A stretch of 64,000 bases of DNA from assembly GCF_037201965.1 (NCBI RefSeq), contig NZ_CP147518.1, positions 5,759,001 to 5,823,000 of the forward strand. The letters are read 5' to 3'. The stretch is from Spirosoma sp. SC4-14. Its GTDB lineage: Bacteria > Bacteroidota > Bacteroidia > Cytophagales > Spirosomataceae. Position 1 is the first letter of the stretch, and every line of letters begins with the position of its first letter. This document shows, one piece after another, positions 1 through 9,452 of this stretch. The notes under the pieces are model-generated. The model did not search any database. It was given only the letters and a program-made list of their open reading frames with translations, and was not told the origin of the DNA. The translations under genes and the position numbers were made by a program.

Positions 1-37
1 TTTTGGCAAGGTTTTCAATCAATAGTTTCATACACAT
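1..37 (-). CDS. Partial 5' end of a gene leaving the left edge, possibly an ABC transporter ATPase
   Basis: Only the first dozen codons are in the window, read leftwards from ATG at 37 (or the second ATG at 31). They give M-C-M-K-L-L-I-E-N-L-A-K. A start of the type MKLLIENLxK is common in ABC transporter ATP-binding proteins, just before the first Walker-type strand, but this is pattern resemblance only. A well-formed promoter with LytTR-type repeats lies directly upstream (92-160). That supports a real gene controlled by the neighbouring two-component system, as bacteriocin export or immunity ABC transporters often are. The product identity stays uncertain. Confidence 0.45.
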   Translation of the reverse strand, partial: MCMKLLIENLAK

Positions 38-91: not shown

Positions 92-160
92 CAAAAGTAT
101 ACCTACCTACCCTTTGGTATCAACTTATTTCGACCAATGGCCTGTATTCTTTCGACCAAT
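92..160 (-). promoter_or_regulatory. Promoter with tandem LytTR-type operator (site A)
   Basis: On the minus strand there is a -7 element TACTTTTG (92-99) and a -33 TTG (121-123) with a 21-bp spacer. Four bp further upstream sit two direct copies of ATTGGTCGAAA (128-138 and 150-160), 22 bp apart. The arrangement matches the promoter at 7050-7138 base for base in spacing. It drives the gene that leaves the left edge. That the binding protein is the LytTR regulator at 8299-9072 is inferred. Confidence 0.7.
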
Positions 161-174
161 GCTCAAACAAAAAC

Positions 175-201
175 GATCAACTACCGGCCTGATAGTTGAT
201 C
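175..201 (-). terminator. Terminator after the DUF3267 gene
   Basis: Inverted repeat GATCAACTA (175-183) / TAGTTGATC (193-201) with a 9-nt loop. On the minus strand it is followed by CGTTTTTGTTTG. It lies 26 nt past the stop of the gene ending at 227, as expected for an intrinsic terminator. Confidence 0.6.
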
Positions 202-226
202 TGAGAGGTTATTCTTATAGAGATAG

Positions 227-781
227 TTACGAATAAGGTTCTTCGGGCCTAATTACCATCAGGCCAACTTTAGTAGGGTGGTCTTGCACAAGCACATCGG
301 AAGGCAGATGCCGCATAAGCCATAGTATCATTACATCGCCAACAGCCGCAAGGGTAAAAAAAACGCCAAAAGACAGTAACCAGACATGACCTGTCAGTAG
401 CGAAACAGCATAGGGAACCAGGCCTAAAATAACTAATGGCATTACCACCACTACCCGGTATTTTCCAGATGTCATGGGAACCGTGGCATGACAGTAAGGG
501 CTTCCTGACTTTACATCGAAACCAAATTTAATATGCTGCCAGCCTATCCGTCCATACCAGTGTGCCGTAAGCCCATGAATGAGTTCATGGACGACAATAC
601 CGATGAACATAGCCACTATAAAAAGAAGAATAGGAACCACTCCCGAAGGGAGTAATTGCTTGGGAGAAAAACCCCAGATCTGATAAAACGGCCAAAACAG
701 CAAGGGTGCACCTATAACAAAGGCTACCACACCAAATGCCTGGGCTTTTATAGCCGAAATGGTGAGGTCTTTTGTAGGCAT
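227..781 (-). CDS. DUF3267 family membrane zincin metalloprotease
   Basis: A protein of about 184 aa with four hydrophobic segments. It has a zinc-protease motif HELIHG in a membrane context (V-V-H-E-L-I-H-G-L), then the DUF3267 hallmarks: S-G-x-P-Y-C-H-A after the first half, and a late G-D ... V-Q-D-H-P-x-K-V-G block supplying further polar ligands. Family members are predicted intramembrane or membrane-anchored proteases of unknown substrate. ATG at 781 is chosen; an in-frame GTG at 805 would add 8 residues. It is the last gene of the peptide island, so a role in leader processing or self-protection is possible but unproven. Confidence 0.75.
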   Translation of the reverse strand: MPTKDLTISAIKAQAFGVVAFVIGAPLLFWPFYQIWGFSPKQLLPSGVVPILLFIVAMFIGIVVHELIHGLTAHWYGRIGWQHIKFGFDVKSGSPYCHATVPMTSGKYRVVVVMPLVILGLVPYAVSLLTGHVWLLSFGVFFTLAAVGDVMILWLMRHLPSDVLVQDHPTKVGLMVIRPEEPYS

Positions 782-842
782 AGTGTAGGTTCTTGAGGTT
801 GTCACTTAAATCCGATTACCTTGATGATGAATATGGTTGAAG

Positions 843-933
843 TGTCCTCCCCCCGAATCGCGTAACCATTGAACAGTAGAAAAATTGCGTTATTTTCACT
901 TAATCAATGGTTGCGCGATTCGGGGGGAGGACA
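843..933. repeat. 30-bp near-perfect inverted repeat
   Basis: The arms at 843-872 and 904-933 are 30 bp each with a single mismatch, separated by 31 bp. Each arm contains a run of six C or G next to GAATCGCG. It lies upstream of the DUF3267 gene and overlaps the end of a degenerate reading frame (900-1106). The size, symmetry and short spacer suggest a small palindromic or MITE-like element, or a solo transposon end pair, rather than a terminator, because no T-run follows. Confidence 0.6.
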
Positions 934-1106
934 AGTGGTTTGCCTTCATAAAGGCCTTGAATAGCGGCCTGTTTGAAGACCTTGAAATCGAATAGGCCAG
1001 TCATACTTGTGAAAATAAGGATTTCTCGTTTCCCTTCTATTGACCCGCAGGCTTGACACAGTTCAGCGAGCAGTCTTACCGTGGAAGCATCTAAATAATC
1101 ATATAG
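900..1106 (-). pseudogene. Startless reading frame, possible gene remnant
   Basis: A 68-codon open stretch on the minus strand begins right after a TAG and has no start codon near its beginning. It encodes protein-like sequence (includes L-D-A-S-T-V-R-L-L-A-E-L and, later, K-V-F-K-Q-A-A-I-Q-G-L-Y-E-G-K). It ends inside the inverted repeat at 904-933. An internal ATG would leave only about 40 residues. I do not recognise the family. The composition is less AT-rich than its surroundings, consistent with a decayed fragment. Confidence 0.3.
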
Positions 1107-1288
1107 CTATTGTATTATTTTTTACTGATAATTGCAATAGCAAAGCAAATAGCCGAAATTATATATAAATACTTTAATACTCGATCTTCCGCATTGTATC
1201 CTAAATACAAGAATGCGAGTATTGGAAACAAAAAAATAAGCCTGAGCATTCTTCCATCTTTCATATTCTCCCAAAAATATAGAAAAAC
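1107..1288. other. AT-rich stretch with no supported gene
   Basis: A plus-strand frame runs through here with a hydrophobic start, but it ends inside the hairpin at 1289-1322 and has no promoter or family resemblance, so it is not called. An imperfect inverted repeat (AATACTCG ... CGAGTATT around 1180-1227, with an inner GCATT/AATGC) is the only structure seen. Confidence 0.4.
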
Positions 1289-1322
1289 CTATCTACCTGA
1301 CCTTGGTAGGTCAGGTAGATAG
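1289..1322 (-). terminator. Terminator of the two-peptide bacteriocin unit
   Basis: A perfect 14-bp stem (1289-1302 / 1309-1322) with a 6-nt loop. On the minus strand it is followed by GGTTTTTCTATATTTTT. It lies 12 nt beyond the stop codon of the 50-aa peptide gene, a classic intrinsic terminator for the unit 1670-1335. Confidence 0.8.
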
Positions 1323-1334
1323 CAGATTTACAAA

Positions 1335-1487
1335 TTACCACGCGTGACGCCGTTCGCGTTCTGCTGCATCTTTACCATACTGATATGCCCTTGCACATAA
1401 TGCAACTACAACACCTACTACCTCCCAAAATCCACCATTGATTTGTGCTAATTCAGCATCTTCAATTTCTTGCAGTTCCATATTCAT
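1335..1487 (-). CDS. Double-glycine leader bacteriocin-like peptide (50 aa)
   Basis: A small gene starting ATG at 1487 (alternative ATG at 1481). The leader M-N-M-E-L-Q-E-I-E-D-A-E-L-A-Q-I-N-G-G fits the double-glycine consensus (L-x5-E-L-x2-I-x-G-G) cut by C39 peptidases of bacteriocin exporters. The predicted mature peptide has 31 residues. It starts F-W-E-V-V-G-V-V-V-A-L, has a single Cys, and ends in a charged R/E-rich tail. The layout (aromatic plus hydrophobic helix, then charged tail) resembles class II bacteriocins annotated in Bacteroidota. It starts 9 nt after the stop of the 57-aa peptide gene, so the two are cotranscribed. No C39 transporter is visible in the window. Confidence 0.8.
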   Translation of the reverse strand: MNMELQEIEDAELAQINGGFWEVVGVVVALCARAYQYGKDAAERERRHAW

Positions 1488-1496
1488 CTTATTATT

Positions 1497-1670
1497 TTAT
1501 CGATTATTATAATAACCCGCACCCAAGCATACTGTAATTGCCGCACAAGATGCTGTGAATGCCCAGCAACCAACCATTACTGCTAGTGGTAGGAATCCTC
1601 CTTCTACTAATGCGAGGTCTTGAATATCTAATTCTAATACTTCTGCTTGATTTAAATTCAAAACTTCCAT
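1497..1670 (-). CDS. Double-glycine leader bacteriocin-like peptide (57 aa)
   Basis: Starts at ATG 1670. The leader of 25 residues ends L-D-I-Q-D-L-A-L-V-E-G-G, again the double-glycine type. The predicted 32-residue core begins F-L-P-L-A-V-M-V-G-C-W and has three Cys in a hydrophobic context, ending Y-Y-N-N-R. The three Cys could form a disulfide or thioethers. It is the first gene of a two-peptide operon with the 50-aa peptide at 1335. The pairing suggests a two-component bacteriocin or paired RiPP substrates; which is not decidable from sequence alone. Confidence 0.8.
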   Translation of the reverse strand: MEVLNLNQAEVLELDIQDLALVEGGFLPLAVMVGCWAFTASCAAITVCLGAGYYNNR

Positions 1671-2032
1671 TTATTTCAACAATTTAAGTCAACGTTTAAA
1701 ATCAATACTATAACAGATTTTATTATGGATGTTATGAGCTAGGCCCTTGATCCATTTTCTACTACCACTCCCTCCGCTTAAACCCGGGATGCATCGGTTG
1801 TGATAGGGTACTCTTAATATATTCTACAACTTGTATTTACTAATCGAGCTAATATAGCAATTTTCTAACTAATGTCTTTGATGGGTCGCTGCCCATATCT
1901 AATAAGATCCTGTTTAGTTATCTTCCGAAAATTTGCCGTAGCCCGATCAATATATACGGTTGTAGCTTTCCATTAATTCTTGATTCATTGGCTTGCCAAA
2001 AGCAAGCAGCATTACCTGATTATGATTACCAA
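1671..2032. other. Intergenic region upstream of the bacteriocin pair
   Basis: About 360 AT-rich bases that must contain the promoter of the 1670-1335 unit. I could not find a convincing TTG-N20-TAnnTTTG pair. Short minus-strand reading fragments with protein-like composition (for example near 1880-1960) are bounded by stops and lack starts. They may be decayed genes, but nothing can be named. Confidence 0.4.
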
Positions 2033-2302
2033 TCAATGTAAAACAGAAGGATTCTGAACTATATCGATTGGCTGGTTAGGTAATGGATAATCGATGTCTA
2101 TTGGCTGCGGTTTTACTGGCAATCGGTCATGGCCCCCAATAGAAAGGGAATCATCTCGTAGGCTTAACACTGGAATAGACGTAGTTGTGTTGGCAGACGT
2201 ATTAACTGTGCCATACGGTTTCACCGTATCGGTTTCTTTACAGGCCATAGCCAGGAGCAATACTCCTCCTATGGCTATTAATGTTTTCTTCCTCATCACC
2301 AT
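2033..2302 (-). CDS. Small putative lipoprotein
   Basis: A protein of about 89 aa with a type II signal peptide: M-R-K-K basic start, hydrophobic core, lipobox L-A-M-A-C, then a mature part K-E-T-D-T-V-K. The mature region is Thr/Ser-rich at first, then proline-rich (P-V-K-P-Q-P-I-D-I-D-Y-P-L-P). No domain is recognised. ATG at 2302 is preferred; ATG at 2296 and an upstream TTG at 2311 are alternatives. It has its own promoter (2322-2352) between two terminated units. A lipoprotein inside a bacteriocin locus could act in immunity (LanI-like), but that is inference from position. Confidence 0.7.
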   Translation of the reverse strand: MVMRKKTLIAIGGVLLLAMACKETDTVKPYGTVNTSANTTTSIPVLSLRDDSLSIGGHDRLPVKPQPIDIDYPLPNQPIDIVQNPSVLH

Positions 2303-2321
2303 ATTGCTCAAATAACTGATA

Positions 2322-2368
2322 CAAATTTTGAAAATTTTCCGGATCGTTTCAACAACATTTGGTTATAG
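2322..2368 (-). promoter_or_regulatory. Promoter of the lipoprotein gene with upstream CTATAACC box
   Basis: On the minus strand there is a -33 TTG (2350-2352), a 20-bp spacer, and a -7 AAAATTTG (2322-2329, 7 of 8 to TAnnTTTG). Eight bp upstream of the TTG lies CTATAACC (2361-2368). The same box-to-TTG spacing occurs at the promoter of the gene ending at 3015. Confidence 0.5.
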
Positions 2369-2409
2369 TTTATTCTAATTAATTATAAGTTTATTTCGGT
2401 TTTATTTTA

Positions 2410-2452
2410 AGTCACTAGCTCCAGTAATAGTTTAAGAAAGGAGCTAGTGACT
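2410..2452 (-). terminator. Terminator after the Ser/Thr-rich peptide gene
   Basis: A perfect 13-bp stem AGTCACTAGCTCC (2410-2422) / GGAGCTAGTGACT (2440-2452) with a 17-nt loop. It is followed on the minus strand by TTAAAATAAAACC, about 100 nt past the stop at 2553. Confidence 0.55.
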
Positions 2453-2552
2453 AATCCCAGTATTAATAAATTGTAGTAGTATTTTTTCATTCAGTAAAGT
2501 ATATCAGTAGAAACGTCAGGCTGCTTAGGGTGGTCACAGGAAACAGGTGAAC

Positions 2553-2732
2553 TTACTTAGTTACGATAAAAACCGGCGTTGTTTGATAGGGCGGTCTATC
2601 CAATTTAATAAGTGTAGTCGGCAATGTGCTGGTGGAGTCTGACATAGTGCCCGTAGCTCCTCCATTAATCTGCTGTAGTTCTTTTTCCTGTAACACCTGT
2701 TGTGTCTGTTTTTTATCCTGATTCTTTTCCAT
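2553..2732 (-). CDS. Ser/Thr-rich double-glycine leader peptide, candidate LanB substrate (59 aa)
   Basis: ATG at 2732. The leader is rich in K/Q/E and ends V-L-Q-E-K-E-L-Q-Q-I-N-G-G, nearly the same cleavage motif as in the 50-aa peptide at 1335. The predicted 34-residue core starts A-T-G-T-M-S-D-S-T-S-T-L-P-T-T and contains about twelve Ser/Thr but no Cys. With a dehydratase nearby, a core full of dehydratable residues but unable to form lanthionine is notable. It could be a linear dehydrated peptide or an unmodified secreted peptide. It has its own promoter (2765-2795) and terminator (2410-2452). Confidence 0.8.
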   Translation of the reverse strand: MEKNQDKKQTQQVLQEKELQQINGGATGTMSDSTSTLPTTLIKLDRPPYQTTPVFIVTK

Positions 2733-2764
2733 AATAGATTAGTTCTTTTTATTAATTACCGAAA

Positions 2765-2795
2765 CAAAGTTCAGGCTTTATGGAGCACAAATCAA
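2765..2795 (-). promoter_or_regulatory. Promoter of the Ser/Thr-rich peptide gene
   Basis: Minus-strand -33 TTG (2793-2795), 20-bp spacer, -7 GAACTTTG (2765-2772, 7 of 8 to TAnnTTTG), about 33 nt upstream of the start codon. A CTATAACC box lies further upstream at 2824-2831, 28 bp from the TTG. Confidence 0.55.
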
Positions 2796-2835
2796 TAACT
2801 TATTGTTGTAATTTATTTCTTTCGGTTATAGCGTA

Positions 2836-3015
2836 CTAAGCGGCTTCCTCATAATATTTCTCTTCTTCATCATTGGGCAAATCCATAGATCCGAACAGGT
2901 CGGTAGCCGACACAATCCAATTGTCATCGAATGTCGATGTATCATCGAATAAAAGGGTATCCTGGTCGTTAATCCAAACTTCGAACGAGTTCGCAGAATA
3001 AATGTGATTCTTCAT
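2836..3015 (-). CDS. Small acidic protein of unknown function (59 aa)
   Basis: ATG at 3015. The product is strongly acidic (many D and E), with a Thr/Ser-bearing centre (L-L-F-D-D-T-S-T-F-D-D-N-W) and an acidic tail ending Y-Y-E-E-A-A. There is no Cys, no Gly-Gly site and no signal peptide. Two F-D-D stretches loosely recall the F-x-L-D leader box of class I lanthipeptides, but the match is weak. It lies directly downstream of the lanB terminator with its own promoter. It could be an atypical precursor, a recognition or accessory protein, or unrelated. Confidence 0.65.
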   Translation of the reverse strand: MKNHIYSANSFEVWINDQDTLLFDDTSTFDDNWIVSATDLFGSMDLPNDEEEKYYEEAA

Positions 3016-3070
3016 GGTTCATTCATTTTTAACTATACAATATTTTTCTGTTTACCATTAATTTCTGAAC

Positions 3071-3117
3071 CAAAATTGTGTCTTATTTCTGAGCACCTCA
3101 ATAACCATCGGTTATAC
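3071..3117 (-). promoter_or_regulatory. Promoter of the acidic small protein with GTATAACC box
   Basis: Minus-strand -33 TTG (3099-3101), 20-bp spacer, -7 CAATTTTG (3071-3078). GTATAACC sits 8 bp upstream of the TTG (3110-3117). A 26-bp block at 3132-3157 matches 22 of 26 bases with 2363-2388 upstream of the lipoprotein promoter. Confidence 0.5.
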
Positions 3118-3166
3118 GACAATCTAGATAATTATAGTTTAATCTAATGCGTTATAACTAAAAAAT

Positions 3167-3183
3167 AGCGTCTGATAGACGCT
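3167..3183 (-). terminator. Intrinsic terminator of lanB
   Basis: Perfect hairpin AGCGTCT / AGACGCT with a 3-nt loop, overlapping the lanB stop codon and followed on the minus strand by ATTTTTTAG. A textbook intrinsic terminator, so lanB transcription ends before the small genes to the left. Confidence 0.85.
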
Positions 3184-6100
3184 CAATAAAGCGGCATTCT
3201 ATTCCGTAAAGAATCATAATATTTAGCCATACAATGATAAATAACCAGTTCATAAACCCGCTGTTTAGATGGGAACAACCGATTAACGATCATATGGATC
3301 AAACTCTGTACTATTGAATATAATCGCTTAGTATTACGTATCGATTCAGTAAGATGGTGTACTAATGGCGTCTGCCGACTTTCCCATTCCGTGAGGTCAG
3401 ATGCGAACGGGAAATTTTCTGCCAATGCCTGTTCCAGAAGTATTCGATACGTTCGATACTTCTCGTTCAATTGATGGCGAAGCGCTGAGTTCCCTCCAAA
3501 TTCCTGAAAAAATTGCTCTTTCAATTCTTCCAGAATATACTGGCAGTCAGCGGTCGAAAAACCTGCGCCAGCCAGAAGATGATCAATTTTTCGCATACAC
3601 ACCGCAACGCGCAGGTTTTCGTCGAATGCCTCACCCGTATGAGTAATAAAAGCAAGTGTCGATAAACTGTCGTAGTAAAACAGCGTTTCGCATAACGATA
3701 TATGGTCTATGCCATAACGTTCAAGCTCCCGCTGGTATGTATCGATTTGCATCCGATGCACAACTCCCGATTCTACAGCCTTATGAAGGGCTTTTTCCAT
3801 AGCCCGGACTACCTGGTGATAGAACTCTAAATAGGCATTACCCCGGAAGCGTAAGCGCAGATGAGGGTCAGTATCTTTATAACGTACAAAAAAGAACTCC
3901 TCGATAACCTGGTTTTTTAGCAACTGCGTTACGGTTGGATAAATGGTGTCGATCAGGAGTTGATCCGACGTTTTTTCGCCCGTATATACTTTCAGGTAAA
4001 ACCATTCGCTACCCACCGAGAACTTACGCTGTAGGCGGGGCGCTACCGACTGGCTCAATCCCGCTAAAGGCTGCACACGTTTATTTCGGAATGGAATGAG
4101 TAGTTCGTGCGTATAACAGTCCCGTTTATCGTGCAAAGGGCATTGTTCAGGGATCGATAAGCATTCGACCAGCCGAATATACCCCGGCCTATCGGTCATA
4201 GTCTTTCGTTCATTTGGCAGATTAGGTTCAGGATGGGCCGTTGACTGTCGGCGAATTTCCTGCATCAGCAGCGCCAGTGAGGCAGGGGTATGCATCGAAA
4301 TAAACAGTTCGTTATCGCCCTGTACCAGCATAAACTGATTAGGCAAGCCAGCCGCCGTTAGTTCGGTCACCAGCCGTAAGGGATTATCGGGTGTGAGTTC
4401 GCGACAGGGAATTTGCCAGGTAGCCCGGCTCAAAATAATGGAGCGATAACGCACTCGTGGCAAATAGGTTTGGGTACGTAGCAAACCCCAGTTCCAGCCA
4501 ACCGACAAATGGGCATCCTGCGCCTGTAGGTCGCATAGAAACCGATAGATCGGTAACCCCTGTGTAAAATTATGTGCATTGGTCAATCGGGGAATTACTC
4601 GCCGATCGAGTCGTTTTGATCGTAAAATCAGTGTATCGTTTCGTACCGATACCATCAGGTCAGTCAAAGGTATCTGATGGTCAGGCGCTACCGATGCCTG
4701 TCCCATATACGGTATTTCGTACTGATGAAGGGTTGGCCGATGCAGAATATTACCAACCCGGTTTTCGGGCAGGTGTACAATTTCGGCCATAATTACATCG
4801 GGGTGATGGGCTTCTTCGGCGTGCACGCTCCGTTGCATGTGTTCAGCCAGTTCGGTATGGCCATTGCCAAACCGGGCCATCAGGTTTATGGCCGATGGAC
4901 CTCTGCATGCCAGCAAATTAAATTGAAAGTTGCCTTTATCCAGCTCTTTGGATGAGTTCGCCACTAAAGTGCCAAATGCATAAAAGCTATCCGGTAGGGG
5001 TGTTTGGTTGACCTGATGGCGACCAATGTAGGCCAGATCGTCGTCGGTCAGGATAATTTCATCGTTTACGTCTGCCGTGCGGGTCTTTTGTAGGGCGCGG
5101 GTATATTTTTCCATGACCAGGGTTTGCCACCAGTCCCAACGTGTATCAATAGGAACCTGATCTGCCGAAAGGGTTAGATCATCGACTAATGGCGCATAGC
5201 CAACTCCGAATGCTGATCCCGATCCGTAGCCCACGCCAAATTCAGCGTCGATAGCGAGTGACAGGGGAATCTCTTCATCCTCGTAGCGATTGTAAAACCG
5301 ACGTTTGAACTCGTCCAGGTCCGGGCAAATGGCTGGCCGATTCAATACCAGTAGCTTTTCCAGATCGCGTTGTAGTTGATGCAGTACCCTTCGGCCAAGC
5401 CTGGGCGTTGGTTGATCGAAAAAAGTATCGATCTGTATCAGATCCGAGACGGGTAAATGGATGTTACGTTCATTGAACCATGCCCGAACGCCTGTGTGCG
5501 CCTGTAATCTGTCGGCTTGTTGGACAAATGCCTGTAACTGACGTAAGGATTCTACGATAAGCGTGGTACCAGTAAATGTGGCTATACGTTCGATCAATCG
5601 ATCCAGATAATCAGGGCCGGTTACGGTGGGCCCGATCTCGAACGATAATAGCTGACCTTCAATTAGTTGTTCAATAAACTCAACGGCTTCTGTTTCATCA
5701 ATTTGAAAGCGTGTTAAAACGTAGGCCAACTCCTGGATGGTAGCCCCTGCACGGGCTGCTTCCAGAATGGCCAACAGATGCCGGTCGGAATCTGTCATGC
5801 TAATAAAATACTGCCGTTGCTCGATTCCCTGCTTTGGAGTTTCGACCTGTTGCTCCACATACCGTAGTGATGAACCAACCGGATAGAGCGACGAATTCGG
5901 GAATAAAAGCAATTGGTCTCGCAGGACGGGGTGGAGTGTGATCCAGCGGCAAAGTGCCAGCATACAGTCTGTATCAATGCGTAGATGGGTTCGTATTGTG
6001 TTCGCGTTTCCGGCTCTCCACTGGGTATGCTCATCGAAATGCCCTACCGTACAACCGGCAAAAAGCCCATAGGGCGTCGGTCGGCTGCACATCCTAATCA

Positions 6101-6347
6101 GGTATTTATGCAGGGTAGTGTGAAGTTTTTCCTGCTCGGGGAGGGTTTCACCAGCTAACCAGCGTTGCATTCGTTCATAAAGAAGGGGCGATGCCGTCAG
6201 AATAGCCTCTTGGGCTATAGGGTGCTGATAATGTTGACGGAGCAATTCATCGATCGGTCTTGTAAAAAGCTGATTGTAAAACTGGATCAGCTTATTGATT
6301 GAAAACGTAGGTTGGCGTATGATAAAATAATCGTCAGGCTGAATCAT
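3183..6347 (-). CDS. lanB: Class I lanthipeptide dehydratase (LanB), full length
   Basis: A 1054-aa protein with the two-part architecture of tRNA-Glu-dependent dehydratases. The N-terminal glutamylation domain (about 1-700) includes R-P-T-P-Y-G-L-F-A-G at 89-98, the G-P-S-A-I-N-L block near 483 and the R-V-R-Y-R-S-I region near 631. The C-terminal elimination (SpaB_C) domain (about 775-1050) opens E-W-F-Y-L-K-V-Y and contains F-F-F-V-R-Y-K-D-T-D-P-H-L-R-L-R-F. Such enzymes glutamylate Ser/Thr of a precursor and eliminate to dehydroamino acids. The length is normal for an unsplit LanB. It is transcribed alone, from the promoter at 6368-6398 to the terminator at 3167-3183. No LanC cyclase, LanT or LanP is visible in the window. 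Confidence 0.92.
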   Translation of the reverse strand: MIQPDDYFIIRQPTFSINKLIQFYNQLFTRPIDELLRQHYQHPIAQEAILTASPLLYERMQRWLAGETLPEQEKLHTTLHKYLIRMCSRPTPYGLFAGCTVGHFDEHTQWRAGNANTIRTHLRIDTDCMLALCRWITLHPVLRDQLLLFPNSSLYPVGSSLRYVEQQVETPKQGIEQRQYFISMTDSDRHLLAILEAARAGATIQELAYVLTRFQIDETEAVEFIEQLIEGQLLSFEIGPTVTGPDYLDRLIERIATFTGTTLIVESLRQLQAFVQQADRLQAHTGVRAWFNERNIHLPVSDLIQIDTFFDQPTPRLGRRVLHQLQRDLEKLLVLNRPAICPDLDEFKRRFYNRYEDEEIPLSLAIDAEFGVGYGSGSAFGVGYAPLVDDLTLSADQVPIDTRWDWWQTLVMEKYTRALQKTRTADVNDEIILTDDDLAYIGRHQVNQTPLPDSFYAFGTLVANSSKELDKGNFQFNLLACRGPSAINLMARFGNGHTELAEHMQRSVHAEEAHHPDVIMAEIVHLPENRVGNILHRPTLHQYEIPYMGQASVAPDHQIPLTDLMVSVRNDTLILRSKRLDRRVIPRLTNAHNFTQGLPIYRFLCDLQAQDAHLSVGWNWGLLRTQTYLPRVRYRSIILSRATWQIPCRELTPDNPLRLVTELTAAGLPNQFMLVQGDNELFISMHTPASLALLMQEIRRQSTAHPEPNLPNERKTMTDRPGYIRLVECLSIPEQCPLHDKRDCYTHELLIPFRNKRVQPLAGLSQSVAPRLQRKFSVGSEWFYLKVYTGEKTSDQLLIDTIYPTVTQLLKNQVIEEFFFVRYKDTDPHLRLRFRGNAYLEFYHQVVRAMEKALHKAVESGVVHRMQIDTYQRELERYGIDHISLCETLFYYDSLSTLAFITHTGEAFDENLRVAVCMRKIDHLLAGAGFSTADCQYILEELKEQFFQEFGGNSALRHQLNEKYRTYRILLEQALAENFPFASDLTEWESRQTPLVHHLTESIRNTKRLYSIVQSLIHMIVNRLFPSKQRVYELVIYHCMAKYYDSLRNRMPLY

Positions 6348-6367
6348 CGAAATAGATGGATAAAAGC

Positions 6368-6398
6368 CAAAGTTATTTTGTCACTGATTTAAAAACAA
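6368..6398 (-). promoter_or_regulatory. Promoter of lanB
   Basis: A perfect Bacteroidota-type promoter on the minus strand: -33 TTG (6396-6398), 20-bp spacer, -7 TAACTTTG (6368-6375), ending about 20 nt before the lanB ATG. No ATTGGTCGAAA repeat is present here, so lanB seems to be outside direct LytTR control. Confidence 0.75.
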
Positions 6399-6444
6399 TA
6401 GAGTTATTTTTATTAATCTGTTTTTGGTGTAGTATTTACTAAAA

Positions 6445-6485
6445 CGATTAAAAGAGACTCCTTTTGGAGAAGTCTCTTTTAATCG
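6445..6485 (-). terminator. Terminator between the pseudo-receiver gene and lanB
   Basis: A perfect 15-bp stem (6445-6459 / 6471-6485) with an 11-nt loop overlaps the stop codon of the upstream gene. On the minus strand it is followed by TTTTAGTAAAT. It separates the LytTR-controlled unit from lanB. Confidence 0.75.
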
Positions 6486-6838
6486 TGTCGGCTGAAATAG
6501 CGTTCCATGCACCGAGTAAAACGCTCGAATGAATACGGCTCAGTCAGAAAATCGAGCGGATGTAGGTTCAGATGGCTGAACAGATGGTGTGGATAAGGCG
6601 AAGTAACCACTACAGCCGGATGTTGCCGCAAGGCATCCAGAAACGGCTCTGGTATAGAGGTGTCCAGCTCAGGTAGTCTTACAAAGACCAGCGCACACTC
6701 GTTGGACCGGATCACAGGCAACATTTCCTCCGTAAATGCACCCGACTGCCCAACAATTAGCCAGCCAATGCGCTGAAGGTAATAGGCGAGTTGACGTTTA
6801 CTCGCCATTGATGGGTTTAGGAGAAGGTAGATTGGCAA
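6479..6838 (-). CDS. Degenerate stand-alone receiver-like protein
   Basis: 119 aa with the alternating strand/helix pattern of a CheY receiver, ending in F-L-T-E-P-Y-S-F-E-R-F, the counterpart of the L-L-K-P-F-S-F-E-R-F end of LytTR-type receivers. Key residues are lost: the acidic pair after strand 1 is N-P (L-L-L-N-P-S), the phospho-acceptor Asp is Arg54 (V-F-V-R-L-P) and the conserved Lys is Glu100. There is no output domain. It therefore probably cannot be phosphorylated and may act by protein contact. The start is TTG at 6838, just after an in-frame TAA; ATG (Met11) is the only later alternative. It is cotranscribed with the 46-codon frame upstream under the LytTR-type promoter at 7050-7138. 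Confidence 0.7.
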   Translation of the reverse strand: MPIYLLLNPSMASKRQLAYYLQRIGWLIVGQSGAFTEEMLPVIRSNECALVFVRLPELDTSIPEPFLDALRQHPAVVVTSPYPHHLFSHLNLHPLDFLTEPYSFERFTRCMERYFSRHD

Positions 6839-6841
6839 TGC

Positions 6842-6982
6842 TTAAACTAATGTGTGGATTATTGAACTTGTTTTTCCGCTTTGTATATTATTAGAAAGTG
6901 TCGTAAGACAAATAATACGTTGTCTTTTAAAAACTAAGCGAGTAGGTGTGACAGTAGCAGTGGGTGAAGTTGACGTTTGCAT
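6842..6982 (-). CDS. Possible Ser/Thr-rich small peptide (46 aa)
   Basis: ATG at 6982, about 60 nt after the predicted transcription start of the strong LytTR-type promoter. The product begins M-Q-T-S-T-S-P-T-A-T-V-T-P-T and has about seventeen Ser/Thr in 46 residues, one Cys and a basic stretch K-R-Q-R. There is no Gly-Gly motif and no signal peptide. The stop codon is in the same frame as, and immediately before, the pseudo-receiver gene. The frame could therefore also be a degraded N-terminal extension of that gene, or a non-coding leader. Its position directly behind a regulated promoter in a dehydratase locus makes a precursor peptide plausible, but the family is unknown. Confidence 0.4.
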   Translation of the reverse strand: MQTSTSPTATVTPTRLVFKRQRIICLTTLSNNIQSGKTSSIIHTLV

Positions 6983-7049
6983 GACTGTAAATAGCTAAGA
7001 AGTATTTATTTTGATAATTAATGTATTATACATTGGCCCGTTGACGATT

Positions 7050-7138
7050 CAAAAGTAGTAGATGCATACAGGTTGCTTCAACTACTTTCGACACGTAAGG
7101 TGTCTTTTTCGACCAATAGCTTGATTGTTTCGACCAAT
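7050..7138 (-). promoter_or_regulatory. Promoter with three LytTR-type repeats (site B)
   Basis: Minus-strand -7 TACTTTTG (7050-7057), 21-bp spacer and -33 TTG (7079-7081). Upstream by 4 bp begin three direct repeats with exact 21-bp steps at 7086, 7107 and 7128. On the gene strand they read ACGTGTCGAAA, ATTGGTCGAAA and ATTGGTCGAAA. The phasing of two helical turns and the contact with the -33 element are what a LytTR activator would need. It drives the unit 6982-6479. Confidence 0.75.
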
Positions 7139-7144
7139 GCTTTG

Positions 7145-8269
7145 CTAAGGCAAATCCTCAACCTGAATTGTAAGAGTAACTTCATAGGTATGTTTAGTCG
7201 CTCTTGTAATCAATTCATACTTGTCTTTATACAATGTATCGAGCCGTCTGCGGACATTGCCAAGACCGATACCCCCTGACTTCTTGTTCGGCTCACTACT
7301 CAGTCGTTTTTCAGGAATACTATTTTCTACCTGAAATGTGAGCAGCCCCTCCGTTAAATTAGCGCTTACCTGTACATAGGCTGGTTCTGTGGCTCCCCTG
7401 ATTCCGTGCTTGAAGGCATTTTCCACAAATGTAATGAGCAGCAAAGGGGTAATCTGATAAATTGATGGATTACCACTCTGATCATAATCAATGACTACGT
7501 ATCGATCTGAAAGCCGATTGCGTTCGAGGTCAAGATAATTCTGGATGTAGGCCAATTCTTTATCAAGAGCTATTTTGGGCAAGTCCGTTTCATAAAGATT
7601 GTAGCGCATTAACTCCGATAAGCGAAGAATTAAATCAGCCGCTTTTTCATCGGTATCAAAAATGCGGGCATACACGCTATTAAGCGTATTGAATAGAAAA
7701 TGCGGGTTAACTTGAGATCTTAACAAGTCTAATTCGAGATTTAATTTGTCTTTTTCAAGTAATAATGTCTTTGTTTGAAGAAGAATAATATCCTTTATAG
7801 CCTTTGCTGTTAATCCCATAATGGCGAACGGGAAACTGTAAAAAAAACTCCAAAAAGAGGCCCATCCATTAGATATAAATCCTAATAAGCCAGCTTCATA
7901 GAGCCTTTGCCAGTCTCGGTCTAATCTTGTTCCATGGTTGAGATTGCTTAAAAATAGAAATAAAATATAGTTGTATTCATATATAAATATCTGCCAAGCC
8001 AAAAGCCATAGTAAAGTTGCAATCCACCTTAATTGATAAAGAGTTTTAGGGAAAATGTAATATGAGAAAACATAGTATATTACTATTGTTTGTATGAATA
8101 AATTAGCCGTGAGTAGATTTAAAATGCCTTCTCTGTCCGAATAGAAATTCTTGAAATAAATATATCGTATAAATAATAAAAATAATAGCCATGATCCAAT
8201 ACGTTTTACCCAATTACCAAGTTTTGATTTGGCCTTAAACCAGGCAATATTATTTTCCTGAGCTAACAT
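7145..8269 (-). CDS. LytS-type membrane sensor histidine kinase
   Basis: 374 aa. The N-terminal half (about 25-155) is a membrane sensor with four or five hydrophobic helices and no recognisable ligand domain. The linker helix at 155-180 leads into the His_kinase domain (PF06580), with L-R-S-Q-V-N-P-H-F-L-F-N-T-L-N around the phospho-acceptor His190. The ATPase part has the N-box F-V-E-N-A-F-K-H-G and G-G-I-G-L-G-N-V-R-R-R-L. It lies 29 nt downstream of the LytTR regulator gene in the same direction, its obvious partner. Membrane sensors of this type respond to peptides or envelope state; the signal here is unknown. Confidence 0.9.
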   Translation of the reverse strand: MLAQENNIAWFKAKSKLGNWVKRIGSWLLFLLFIRYIYFKNFYSDREGILNLLTANLFIQTIVIYYVFSYYIFPKTLYQLRWIATLLWLLAWQIFIYEYNYILFLFLSNLNHGTRLDRDWQRLYEAGLLGFISNGWASFWSFFYSFPFAIMGLTAKAIKDIILLQTKTLLLEKDKLNLELDLLRSQVNPHFLFNTLNSVYARIFDTDEKAADLILRLSELMRYNLYETDLPKIALDKELAYIQNYLDLERNRLSDRYVVIDYDQSGNPSIYQITPLLLITFVENAFKHGIRGATEPAYVQVSANLTEGLLTFQVENSIPEKRLSSEPNKKSGGIGLGNVRRRLDTLYKDKYELITRATKHTYEVTLTIQVEDLP

Positions 8270-8298
8270 GATCTATACGGTGAGGTAGCAGATAATAT

Positions 8299-9072
8299 CT
8301 ATATCATATTTTTCTTCAATTCTTCCATTACACGTTCCCGATACGTAACACCAATGGCTACTTTTTTACCGTCGAGGGTGGTAATTAGGTTTCCATCAAT
8401 TTCTTTGATGGCCTGTCGGCGAATCAGGTATGAACGGTTAATCCGCAAAAATTGCGAGGGGGGCAACATCTCTTCCAGCTTGCTCATGGTCATGTGGGTA
8501 ATGAGTACGCGGGAGGTTAGGTGTAGTTTGAGGTAATCTTTCATGCCCTCGGCAAACACAATGTCTTCCGGGGCTACCCGAATCAGCTTTTTGTCTTCTT
8601 TAATCAGGAAGTAGGGAATCTTTTCGCGCGGATCGACAGCCGGTTCGGTTTGGGAGCGAATCTGAGGTTTTGTTGGAACGGGGGCTTCAGGATCAATGGC
8701 AAAGCCCAGCCGTTTGGTGACCCGGTTAATGGCATCCAGAAACTTGTCGAAGCCAACGGGTTTGAGTAGATAATGCGTAACAGAATCGAAGTTATAGGTT
8801 TCGGCCGCAAACTGGGGAGATGCTGTTACCATAATCACGAGCGGATGGGGCAACGGCAACGATTTCAGGAATTCGACACCTGTCATATAAGGCATTTCGA
8901 CATCCAGAAATAAAATGTCGGGCCTGAGAGCCTGCACTTTTTCAAGCCCTTCAAATGGGTCGTAACTCTTCCCAAGAAAAGTCAGGTAGGGCACCCGACT
9001 AATGTATTTCGACATAATAACGTGAGCCGGAGACTCATCGTCGATTAAATAGCAAGTCAGTGATTCGCTCAT
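8299..9072 (-). CDS. LytTR family response regulator
   Basis: 257 aa. The receiver domain (about 5-120) is intact: acidic pair D11-D12, phospho-acceptor Asp57 in L-F-L-D-V-E-M-P, Thr83 and Lys104 in L-L-K-P. The LytTR DNA-binding domain occupies about 150-255 (F-L-I-K-E-D-K-K-L start, F-L-R-I-N-R-S-Y-L-I near the middle). Such regulators bind pairs of direct repeats about two helical turns apart. Exactly such repeats are found at 128-160, 7086-7138 and 9113-9144, the last in this gene's own upstream region. It is first in an operon with the kinase. That it controls the peptide island is inferred from these sites. Confidence 0.93.
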   Translation of the reverse strand: MSESLTCYLIDDESPAHVIMSKYISRVPYLTFLGKSYDPFEGLEKVQALRPDILFLDVEMPYMTGVEFLKSLPLPHPLVIMVTASPQFAAETYNFDSVTHYLLKPVGFDKFLDAINRVTKRLGFAIDPEAPVPTKPQIRSQTEPAVDPREKIPYFLIKEDKKLIRVAPEDIVFAEGMKDYLKLHLTSRVLITHMTMSKLEEMLPPSQFLRINRSYLIRRQAIKEIDGNLITTLDGKKVAIGVTYRERVMEELKKNMI

Positions 9073-9112
9073 AATAGTGGCAATATATTCGATTTAGCCT
9101 TTCTAGTCACTC

Positions 9113-9179
9113 ATTTGTCGAACAGAGAAGACTATTGGTCGAAATATATTTTACATTTTTCTCTGGTTTCATTGCTTTG
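9113..9179 (+). promoter_or_regulatory. LytTR-type repeats and plus-strand promoter (site C)
   Basis: Two direct repeats ATTTGTCGAAC (9113-9123) and ATTGGTCGAAA (9134-9144), 21 bp apart. Four bp later comes a weak -33 (TTT, 9149-9151), then a 20-bp spacer and -7 TTGCTTTG (9172-9179). The orientation relative to the downstream XRE gene (9216) is the same as at sites A and B. The repeats also lie about 40-70 bp upstream of the divergent response-regulator gene, so they could serve autoregulation too. Confidence 0.65.
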
Positions 9180-9215
9180 TAGCCATCAATCACACAAACC
9201 ATTCCAGTAAATAAG

Positions 9216-9452
9216 ATGAACCCTATTGCCACTAAAATTCGGAAACTACGGGAGATTCATGGCTACCCACAAGAGTACGTTGCTTTTCAATTAGGGGTTA
9301 GTCAGGCTGCTTACAGCAAAAAAGAAACGGGTCGGACCGAGCTAACATTAACTGTTCTTCAACAAGTATCGTCATTGTATAATATCAGCCTAAACGATCT
9401 TCTGAGCCTGACCTTACAGGATCTGATGATTACTGCCATAAGCCGACAATAA
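9216..9452 (+). CDS. XRE-family helix-turn-helix regulator
   Basis: 78 aa. A single HTH_3 (Cro/CI-like) domain occupies residues 5-62 (I-R-K-L-R-E-I-H-G-Y-P-Q-E-Y-V-A start; Q-A-A-Y-S-K-K-E-T-G-R recognition helix), with a short hydrophobic tail. There is no sensor or peptidase domain. ATG at 9216 follows the promoter of site C at about 30 nt from the predicted transcript start. It is divergent from the LytTR two-component operon and probably belongs to its regulon, so it may be a secondary regulator of the island. Its targets are unknown. Confidence 0.85.
   Translation: MNPIATKIRKLREIHGYPQEYVAFQLGVSQAAYSKKETGRTELTLTVLQQVSSLYNISLNDLLSLTLQDLMITAISRQ

Follow-up and report, generated by a model that had tools for sequence, protein, structure and literature searches.

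In the stretch of the Spirosoma sp. SC4-14 genome analysed here (64,000 nt of NZ_CP147518.1, positions 5,759,001 to 5,823,000; hereafter the window, numbered from its first letter), three promoters of one gene island are preceded by direct repeats. We propose, with a probability of roughly 87% on sequence evidence, that these repeats are the operators of the adjacent LytTR response regulator (8299..9072, reverse strand), which, driven by its sensor histidine kinase (7145..8269, reverse strand), would activate the genes behind the three sites, A, B and C. Our confidence that the operators are real and of the LytTR type is high. Site A precedes an ATP-binding cassette (ABC) transporter ATPase gene (start at 1..31, reverse strand; PF00005), which continues to the left of the window. 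Site B precedes p44 (6842..6982, reverse strand), the first gene behind it, which encodes a 46-aa peptide resembling precursors of ribosomally synthesized and post-translationally modified peptides (RiPPs). Site C precedes an XRE-family regulator gene (9216..9452, forward strand; HTH_3). The kinase and regulator genes are situated between sites B and C. An earlier model reading of the bare letters (the sequence-only reading) had placed a LytTR regulator beside site C, and the encoded protein does match PF04397 (E 1.1e-18), with its phosphorylation residues intact. The kinase, which we take to be of the LytS type, matches PF06580 (E 3e-24) and, below its cut-off, HATPase_c_5; a hydropathy threshold gave a single segment in it and was not used.

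At site A, on the reverse strand, two exact copies of the half-site ATTGGTCGAAA lie at 128..138 (promoter-proximal) and 150..160 (distal) with a period of 22 bp, and a weak third half-site (GTTGATCGTTT) is seen upstream of the pair at about 171..181. A comparable third half-site is found in two relatives, G015 and G019 (G and L numbers are our handles for genomes and loci). Site B, on the same strand, consists of a proximal variant ACGTGTCGAAA (7086..7096; 8 of 11 positions match) and exact middle and distal copies of ATTGGTCGAAA (7107..7117 and 7128..7138), both periods being 21 bp. Site C, on the forward strand, combines a distal variant ATTTGTCGAAC with two mismatches (9113..9123) and an exact proximal ATTGGTCGAAA (9134..9144), also 21 bp apart. 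In all three cases the last half-site ends 4 bp ahead of the −33 element, which is TTG at A and B and TTT at C. Promoter A (92..123, reverse strand; TTG 121–123, TACTTTTG 92–99) and promoter B (7050..7081, reverse strand; TTG 7079–7081, TACTTTTG 7050–7057) both read exactly TTG-N21-TACTTTTG, and promoter C (9149..9179, forward strand) has TTT at 9149–9151 and a −7 TTTG at 9176–9179. Thus, both the repeat groups listed by the sequence-only reading, with their positions and periods, and its promoter geometry were recovered, the former by direct pattern search of the window and the latter by reading the promoters. The repeats share a 9-bp core, TTGGTCGAA, with 12–13 bp between the two directly repeated cores, which is LytTR-type spacing. 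That LytTR proteins bind paired direct repeats about two helical turns apart, as the same reading had stated, agrees with PMC2714321 and PMC4064291 (papers given by accession are drawn on in excerpt throughout).

Single half-sites are not rare: allowing up to 2 mismatches, the window contains 42, compared with a mean of 23.95 in 100 shuffles, none of which (0/100) reached 42. An exact pair of ATTGGTCGAAA with a gap of 8–13 bp is found in the whole 8.1-Mb genome at A and B only. Scanning the genome at a period of 21 with up to 3 mismatches gave 37 matches, of which B has 0 mismatches, C has 1 and each of the remaining 35 has 3 (two of them being outer overlaps at A and B themselves). Since the reversed-pattern control gave 29 matches, those other than B and C are best regarded as background. 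Markov controls contained one site of score at least 18 in 2 Mb. The agreement of three sites had been called unlikely to be a chance effect, and the restriction of the exact pair to A and B, together with the geometry kept in relatives, bears this out. We also rejected an origin from a mobile repeat, as from chance: in the B and C groups, relatives keep the half-sites but not the bases between them, and the promoter spacing is fixed.

The promoter geometry was scored in 40 curated sites. A TT at +4 after the proximal half-site is present in 40/40, and the box at +31/32 is TTTG in 34 and TTTG or TTCG in 38; in the background, 2 of 440 14-base windows show this geometry. For one of the 40 sites (G100, L078:10212-10243) no clear target is evident. 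Most B sites have three half-sites, with periods of 21 and 21–22. The −7 box reads TAnnTTTG, as does the flavobacterial sigma-A box (PMC9723704). Another 20 sites, good and doubtful alike, were left out of the 40 and scored separately, giving TT at +4 in 14 and TTTG or TTCG at +31/32 in 12. They comprise the p44 site of G018, the ABC site of G007, three sites of G026, two of Fibrella, four of G014, one of G030, four of G028, a second upstream site in L065 and the single matches of G003, G010 (3370430) and G024 (4345617). This geometry bears on whether the repeats could be repressor operators instead of activator sites. PlnD, a LytTR protein acting on the same repeats as the activator PlnC, can repress (PMC2714321), so that repression has a precedent. 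The repeats, however, lie just upstream of the −33 element without overlapping it, at a fixed distance in 40/40 curated sites, and such placement is that of the pln promoters, where PlnC activates (PMC2714321). We therefore consider repression distinctly unlikely here.

Conservation within the genus supports regulation of the proposed targets by the adjacent LytTR protein. The regulator is 94% identical to its S. panaciterrae orthologue and was detected at E ≤ 1e-60 in 25 of 36 genomes of the genus, in 12 of these with at least 74% identity. In 12/12 of the latter, sites precede both the XRE gene and p44, the XRE site of G015 being weak (score 17); the repeat pairs are thus present upstream of the orthologues, where their absence had been named as counting against the proposal. 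The ABC-ATPase gene carries a site in eight genomes (G000, G007, G013, G015, G018, G019, G023 and G026). It lies outside the examined stretches in G008, G009, G012 and G021, and in G034 it stands close behind XRE without a site of its own. In G023 (L063, about 9106–9351) the ABC ATPase is truncated and continues into the later portion of the permease/M1 gene (an 83-aa frame), with the operator kept.

The XRE gene and its site are found together 30–34 kb from the regulator in G002, G004, G005 and G033, about 3.1 Mb from it in G016, and also away from it in G007, G012 and G018; in G007, a site 2.1 Mb from the regulator proved to precede the ABC gene. XRE matches in G035 (51%) and weaker ones in G003, G022 and G033 were left out of this site check, and the 20-kb regulator neighbourhoods of G002, G006, G014, G030, G033 and G035 were also set aside. 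Because the site stays before XRE when XRE sits elsewhere, the target of site C is XRE and not the regulator operon, and autoregulation of the regulator through site C was rejected, as the site faces XRE and moves with it. The regulon claimed by the sequence-only reading thus holds for the left-edge ABC gene, for the 6982–6479 unit, which consists of p44 and a pseudo-receiver gene, and for XRE, and has to be given up for the regulator's own operon.

The persistence of the site before a relocated XRE would also be expected if the XRE protein itself bound the repeats, site C then serving autoregulation and A and B being its other targets. XRE is not required, though, because sites and a regulator homologue occur together in G100, G010, G028 and G030, which have no XRE match at E ≤ 1e-12. 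Both Fibrella loci likewise have site B and no XRE in their 17-kb stretches. Inverted repeats are the usual targets of XRE dimers. The direct orientation and two-turn spacing seen here agree with LytTR proteins (PMC2714321, PMC4064291), and we regard binding by XRE as very unlikely.

The sequence-only reading had called for a scan of this and related genomes for repeat pairs before promoters with the 4-bp gap, and its outcome was positive. A degenerate pattern gave 50 matches in 24 of the 36 genus genomes, compared with 5 for the reversed pattern. It matched in 23 of the 25 genomes with the regulator (E ≤ 1e-60) and in 1 of the 11 without, for which the Fisher p of 2.7e-6 overstates the association, the pattern having been shaped by orthologues and genomes of one genus not being independent. 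We take this co-occurrence as support, not proof. In a hand tally of the 50 matches, 39 are at targets of the A, B or C type (two of these being overlapping matches on one site in G034), 8 precede other possible targets (five GG peptides, one homologue of the acidic peptide described below, one outer-membrane-type gene and one kinase operon) and 3 have no evident promoter. The exact pattern matched in 6 of 200 genomes of the family; five belong to the same genus, each with a regulator at least 78% identical, and the sixth, G100, belongs to another genus and has a regulator of 74.5% identity beside the site. Together, the conserved geometry and the co-occurrence with the regulator in relatives support the repeat as a putative activator-binding consensus. 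Related sites also stand before other GG-leader peptides near more distant regulators (G014 C9, in L090 and L146; G030, in L098; G028, in L072 and L151), and these are perhaps sister circuits.

The sites might instead be bound by another LytTR regulator encoded in this genome, the adjacent one being a mere neighbour. The genome offers 118 candidate relatives of the regulator (74 scored, 1 of them at E ≤ 1e-60). Against this, the co-occurrence follows the orthologue of the adjacent regulator, and in G014, whose regulator shows 54% identity, the site before XRE is altered by drift (GTTGACCGAAA) but keeps TT at +4 and TTCG at +31. In other genera, moreover, a diverged block lies between the kinase–regulator pair and its ABC neighbour, as described next. 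We consider this explanation very unlikely, and the adjacent regulator remains our candidate binder.

Two Fibrella loci, fetched after the motif had been fixed, have site B with the predicted offsets. In other genera of the order, two Emticicia and two Hymenobacter loci (L128, L129, L130 and L133) have the kinase–regulator pair, with a regulator 34–36% identical, divergent from the ABC/M1 gene. A motif scan at score 18 of these and other distant loci (L128–L134) found nothing, and an automatic direct-repeat search in the distant loci gave no convincing pair; the diverged form came to light only by inspection and alignment of the ABC promoter. The ABC promoters of the Emticicia and Hymenobacter loci share the block TGGTCGATTA...AGCATATC in nearly the same geometry. 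Searching 390 genomes of the order for this block with up to 3 mismatches returned 10 matches, compared with 0 for the reversed control, and 10/10 (L135–L144) precede the ABC/M1 gene, from which the kinase and regulator genes diverge. In L128, L129, L130 and L133 (17 kb each), which contain no LanB or XRE match, the block stands beside the kinase–regulator pair, and this speaks against XRE as the binder of the repeats.

Several observations weigh against our proposal. In the 14 distant blocks (the 10 and the first 4), the register was chosen by the promoter offset, so that TT at +4 in 14/14 and TTTG or TTCG at +31 in 11/14 are not independent evidence, as the conservation and place of the block alone are. 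In addition, 3 of the 14 lack TTTG or TTCG at +31, one has a period of 20 (the other 13 have 21), and the distant proximal half-site (ATCAGCATATC) is unlike the consensus. The p44 site of G018 has its TT at +3, not +4. In the 20-kb stretches of G004, G005, G016 and G028, whose regulators are 51–60% identical, no site of score at least 18 precedes LanB or the pseudo-receiver unit. G006 and G035 have a regulator of 42% identity and no pattern match, and G003 has one weak match and no regulator at E ≤ 1e-60. In the two Fibrella loci, XRE, the ABC gene and sites A and C are all missing from the 17 kb examined.

In the circuit that we propose, the kinase would drive the regulator, which in its phosphorylated form would occupy two or three directly repeated half-sites, each with the core TTGGTCGAA and two helical turns from the next. 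As the copy nearest the promoter, which is of the Bacteroidota sigma-A type, ends 4 bp ahead of the −33 element, the bound protein would contact RNA polymerase and activate transcription. Regulator binding, its dependence on phosphorylation and activation rather than repression are predictions. The regulon would comprise (A) the ABC ATPase with a permease/M1-peptidase fusion, (B) the RiPP-precursor-like peptide and the pseudo-receiver ahead of LanB, and (C) the XRE regulator, and the products may serve peptide export or immunity and RiPP production.

The second gene behind site B encodes a stand-alone pseudo-receiver (6479..6838, reverse strand; 119 aa), in which the phospho-acceptor Asp, the acidic pair and the Lys are replaced. 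It matches the receiver of the regulator (hhalign, 98%) and receivers in the PDB (best E 2.8e-7), and 0 of 18 members match the Pfam receiver model at E ≤ 0.1. The acceptor Asp is absent in 18/18 and the Lys is changed to Glu in 18/18; the regulator keeps both residues in 17/17. The gene follows p44 in 10 of the 12 genomes with a regulator of at least 74% identity, and no pseudo-receiver match lies between p44 and LanB in the other two, G013 and G026. Because it is absent there, the circuit can evidently do without it. It could act back on the regulator, a feedback that is conceivable because its expression is predicted to start from site B. The excerpt of a pseudo-receiver paper (PMC12632262) contains no LytTR case that we found.

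The p44 peptides are conserved in their front part and variable in their rear part, which is rich in Ser/Thr. The leader motif LxLxKx5L is strict in 9 of 16 p44 sequences, and that of the window is matched only in the relaxed form LxFxRx5L. Downstream, a full-length LanB-type dehydratase (3183..6347, reverse strand; Lant_dehydr_N and C) is followed by a 59-aa acidic peptide (2836..3015, reverse strand), which is conserved behind LanB in many relatives. Farther on, all on the reverse strand, lie three small peptides: a 59-aa peptide with an INGG leader and a Ser/Thr-rich remainder (2553..2732), a 57-aa peptide with a GG-type leader (1497..1670; TIGR03949, above its cut-off) and a 50-aa peptide with a GG-type leader (1335..1487; weak bacteriocin-leader matches, below cut-off). 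A 92-aa lipoprotein-like open reading frame in this cluster (2033–2311) has weak relatives in other islands and is possibly an immunity protein. Left of the window, the ABC ATPase gene is followed by a 1211-aa ABC-2 permease/M1 peptidase fusion (PF01433) and then by a 76-aa GG-type peptide and a 132-aa frame. Beyond these lie a CarboxypepD_reg-like gene and the genes for HlyD, a C39-peptidase ABC exporter and an outer-membrane channel; both the C39 exporter and GG-leader peptides are thus present in the cluster. The island has no LanC, no LanC at all was detected in 6 of the 9 island genomes tested, and the sole LanC match of this genome lies about 143 kb from LanB. A strict lanthipeptide label was therefore rejected for want of LanC in the island, which works like a class I RiPP system and lacks this defining lanthipeptide feature.

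Between the pseudo-receiver gene and LanB, direct reading shows a terminator-like hairpin at about 6450–6480 and, near it, a separate promoter candidate, TTG-N20-TAACTTTG. LanB may thus have its own promoter, separate from the site B unit. In 5/5 of L064, L066, L067, L068 and L069, a single half-site (ATTGGTCGAAA/ATTAGTCGAAA) stands before LanB, its distance to a TTG being exactly 14 bp and thus a helical turn more than the usual 4-bp gap, and the promoter-like sequence reads TTG-N20-TAnnTTAG with TAnnTTAG at +37 in all five. L062 has a half-site before LanB without this promoter, and the window has no half-site at the corresponding place. In six loci (L064, L069, L073, L074, L075 and L079) two tandem sensor kinases stand behind the regulator, not one.

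In titles and abstract openings of the open-licence literature, we found no LytTR operator, target set or RiPP-control circuit described for Bacteroidota. The present analysis yields a consensus and a precise promoter geometry, as well as a regulon open to checking in at least two genera, with a related form in others of the order, and questions of the kinase ligand and the RiPP product become testable with simple reporters. A more tentative and rather doubtful extension is that the LytTR system hard-wired to the ABC/M1 fusion is an old peptide-sensing and clearing module of the order, acting in the manner of Bce-type resistance modules, whose operator was copied before the LanC-less LanB island in Spirosoma and Fibrella and before XRE in Spirosoma, with the co-induced pseudo-receiver acting as a brake or clamp on the receiver of the regulator. 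If this is true, peptide sensing would switch on both self-protection and peptide production.

The operators appear to be a variant of the known LytTR-type kind. Sites of the AgrA/AlgR/VirR type are imperfect direct repeats of 8–13 bp about 12 bp apart (PMC4064291); ours resemble them in repeat size and spacing and differ in phylum, promoter type and targets. BtsR and YpdB of gamma-proteobacteria belong to LytS/LytTR pairs with few targets and conserved target-promoter motifs (PMC5552118). All three features recur here, whereas those systems are pyruvate-responsive and act on transporter genes and ours is tied to a peptide island and an ABC/M1 fusion. In Bacteroidetes, clusters for class I lanthipeptides have LxLxKx5L leaders, GG and a C39 protease (PMC7268733). 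The island shares LanB and the C39 exporter with them, and the LxLxKx5L leader is strict in 9 of the 16 precursor sequences compared but not in that of the window; it differs in having no LanC, so that LanC-based mining as in PMC7268733 would pass over such LanB islands. With the pheromone-controlled bacteriocin regulons of the Com, Blp and Pln type, the cluster has a C39-peptidase exporter and GG-leader peptides in common. HPK10 is the defining kinase type of such regulons, and the present kinase, of PF06580, is not of this type. Our system further differs from Pln in its half-site (TTGGTCGAA as opposed to TACGTTAAT), its Bacteroidota −33/−7 promoter, the frequent third half-site and the LanB-type peptides. 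In the pln operators, two direct repeats of 9 bp, separated by 12 bp, lie immediately before the −35 box (PMC2714321). In having repeats just ahead of the promoter, and a single regulator family by which regulatory, transport and bacteriocin operons are controlled together, the proposed circuit is like the PlnC/PlnD plantaricin regulon of Lactobacillus plantarum (PMC2714321).

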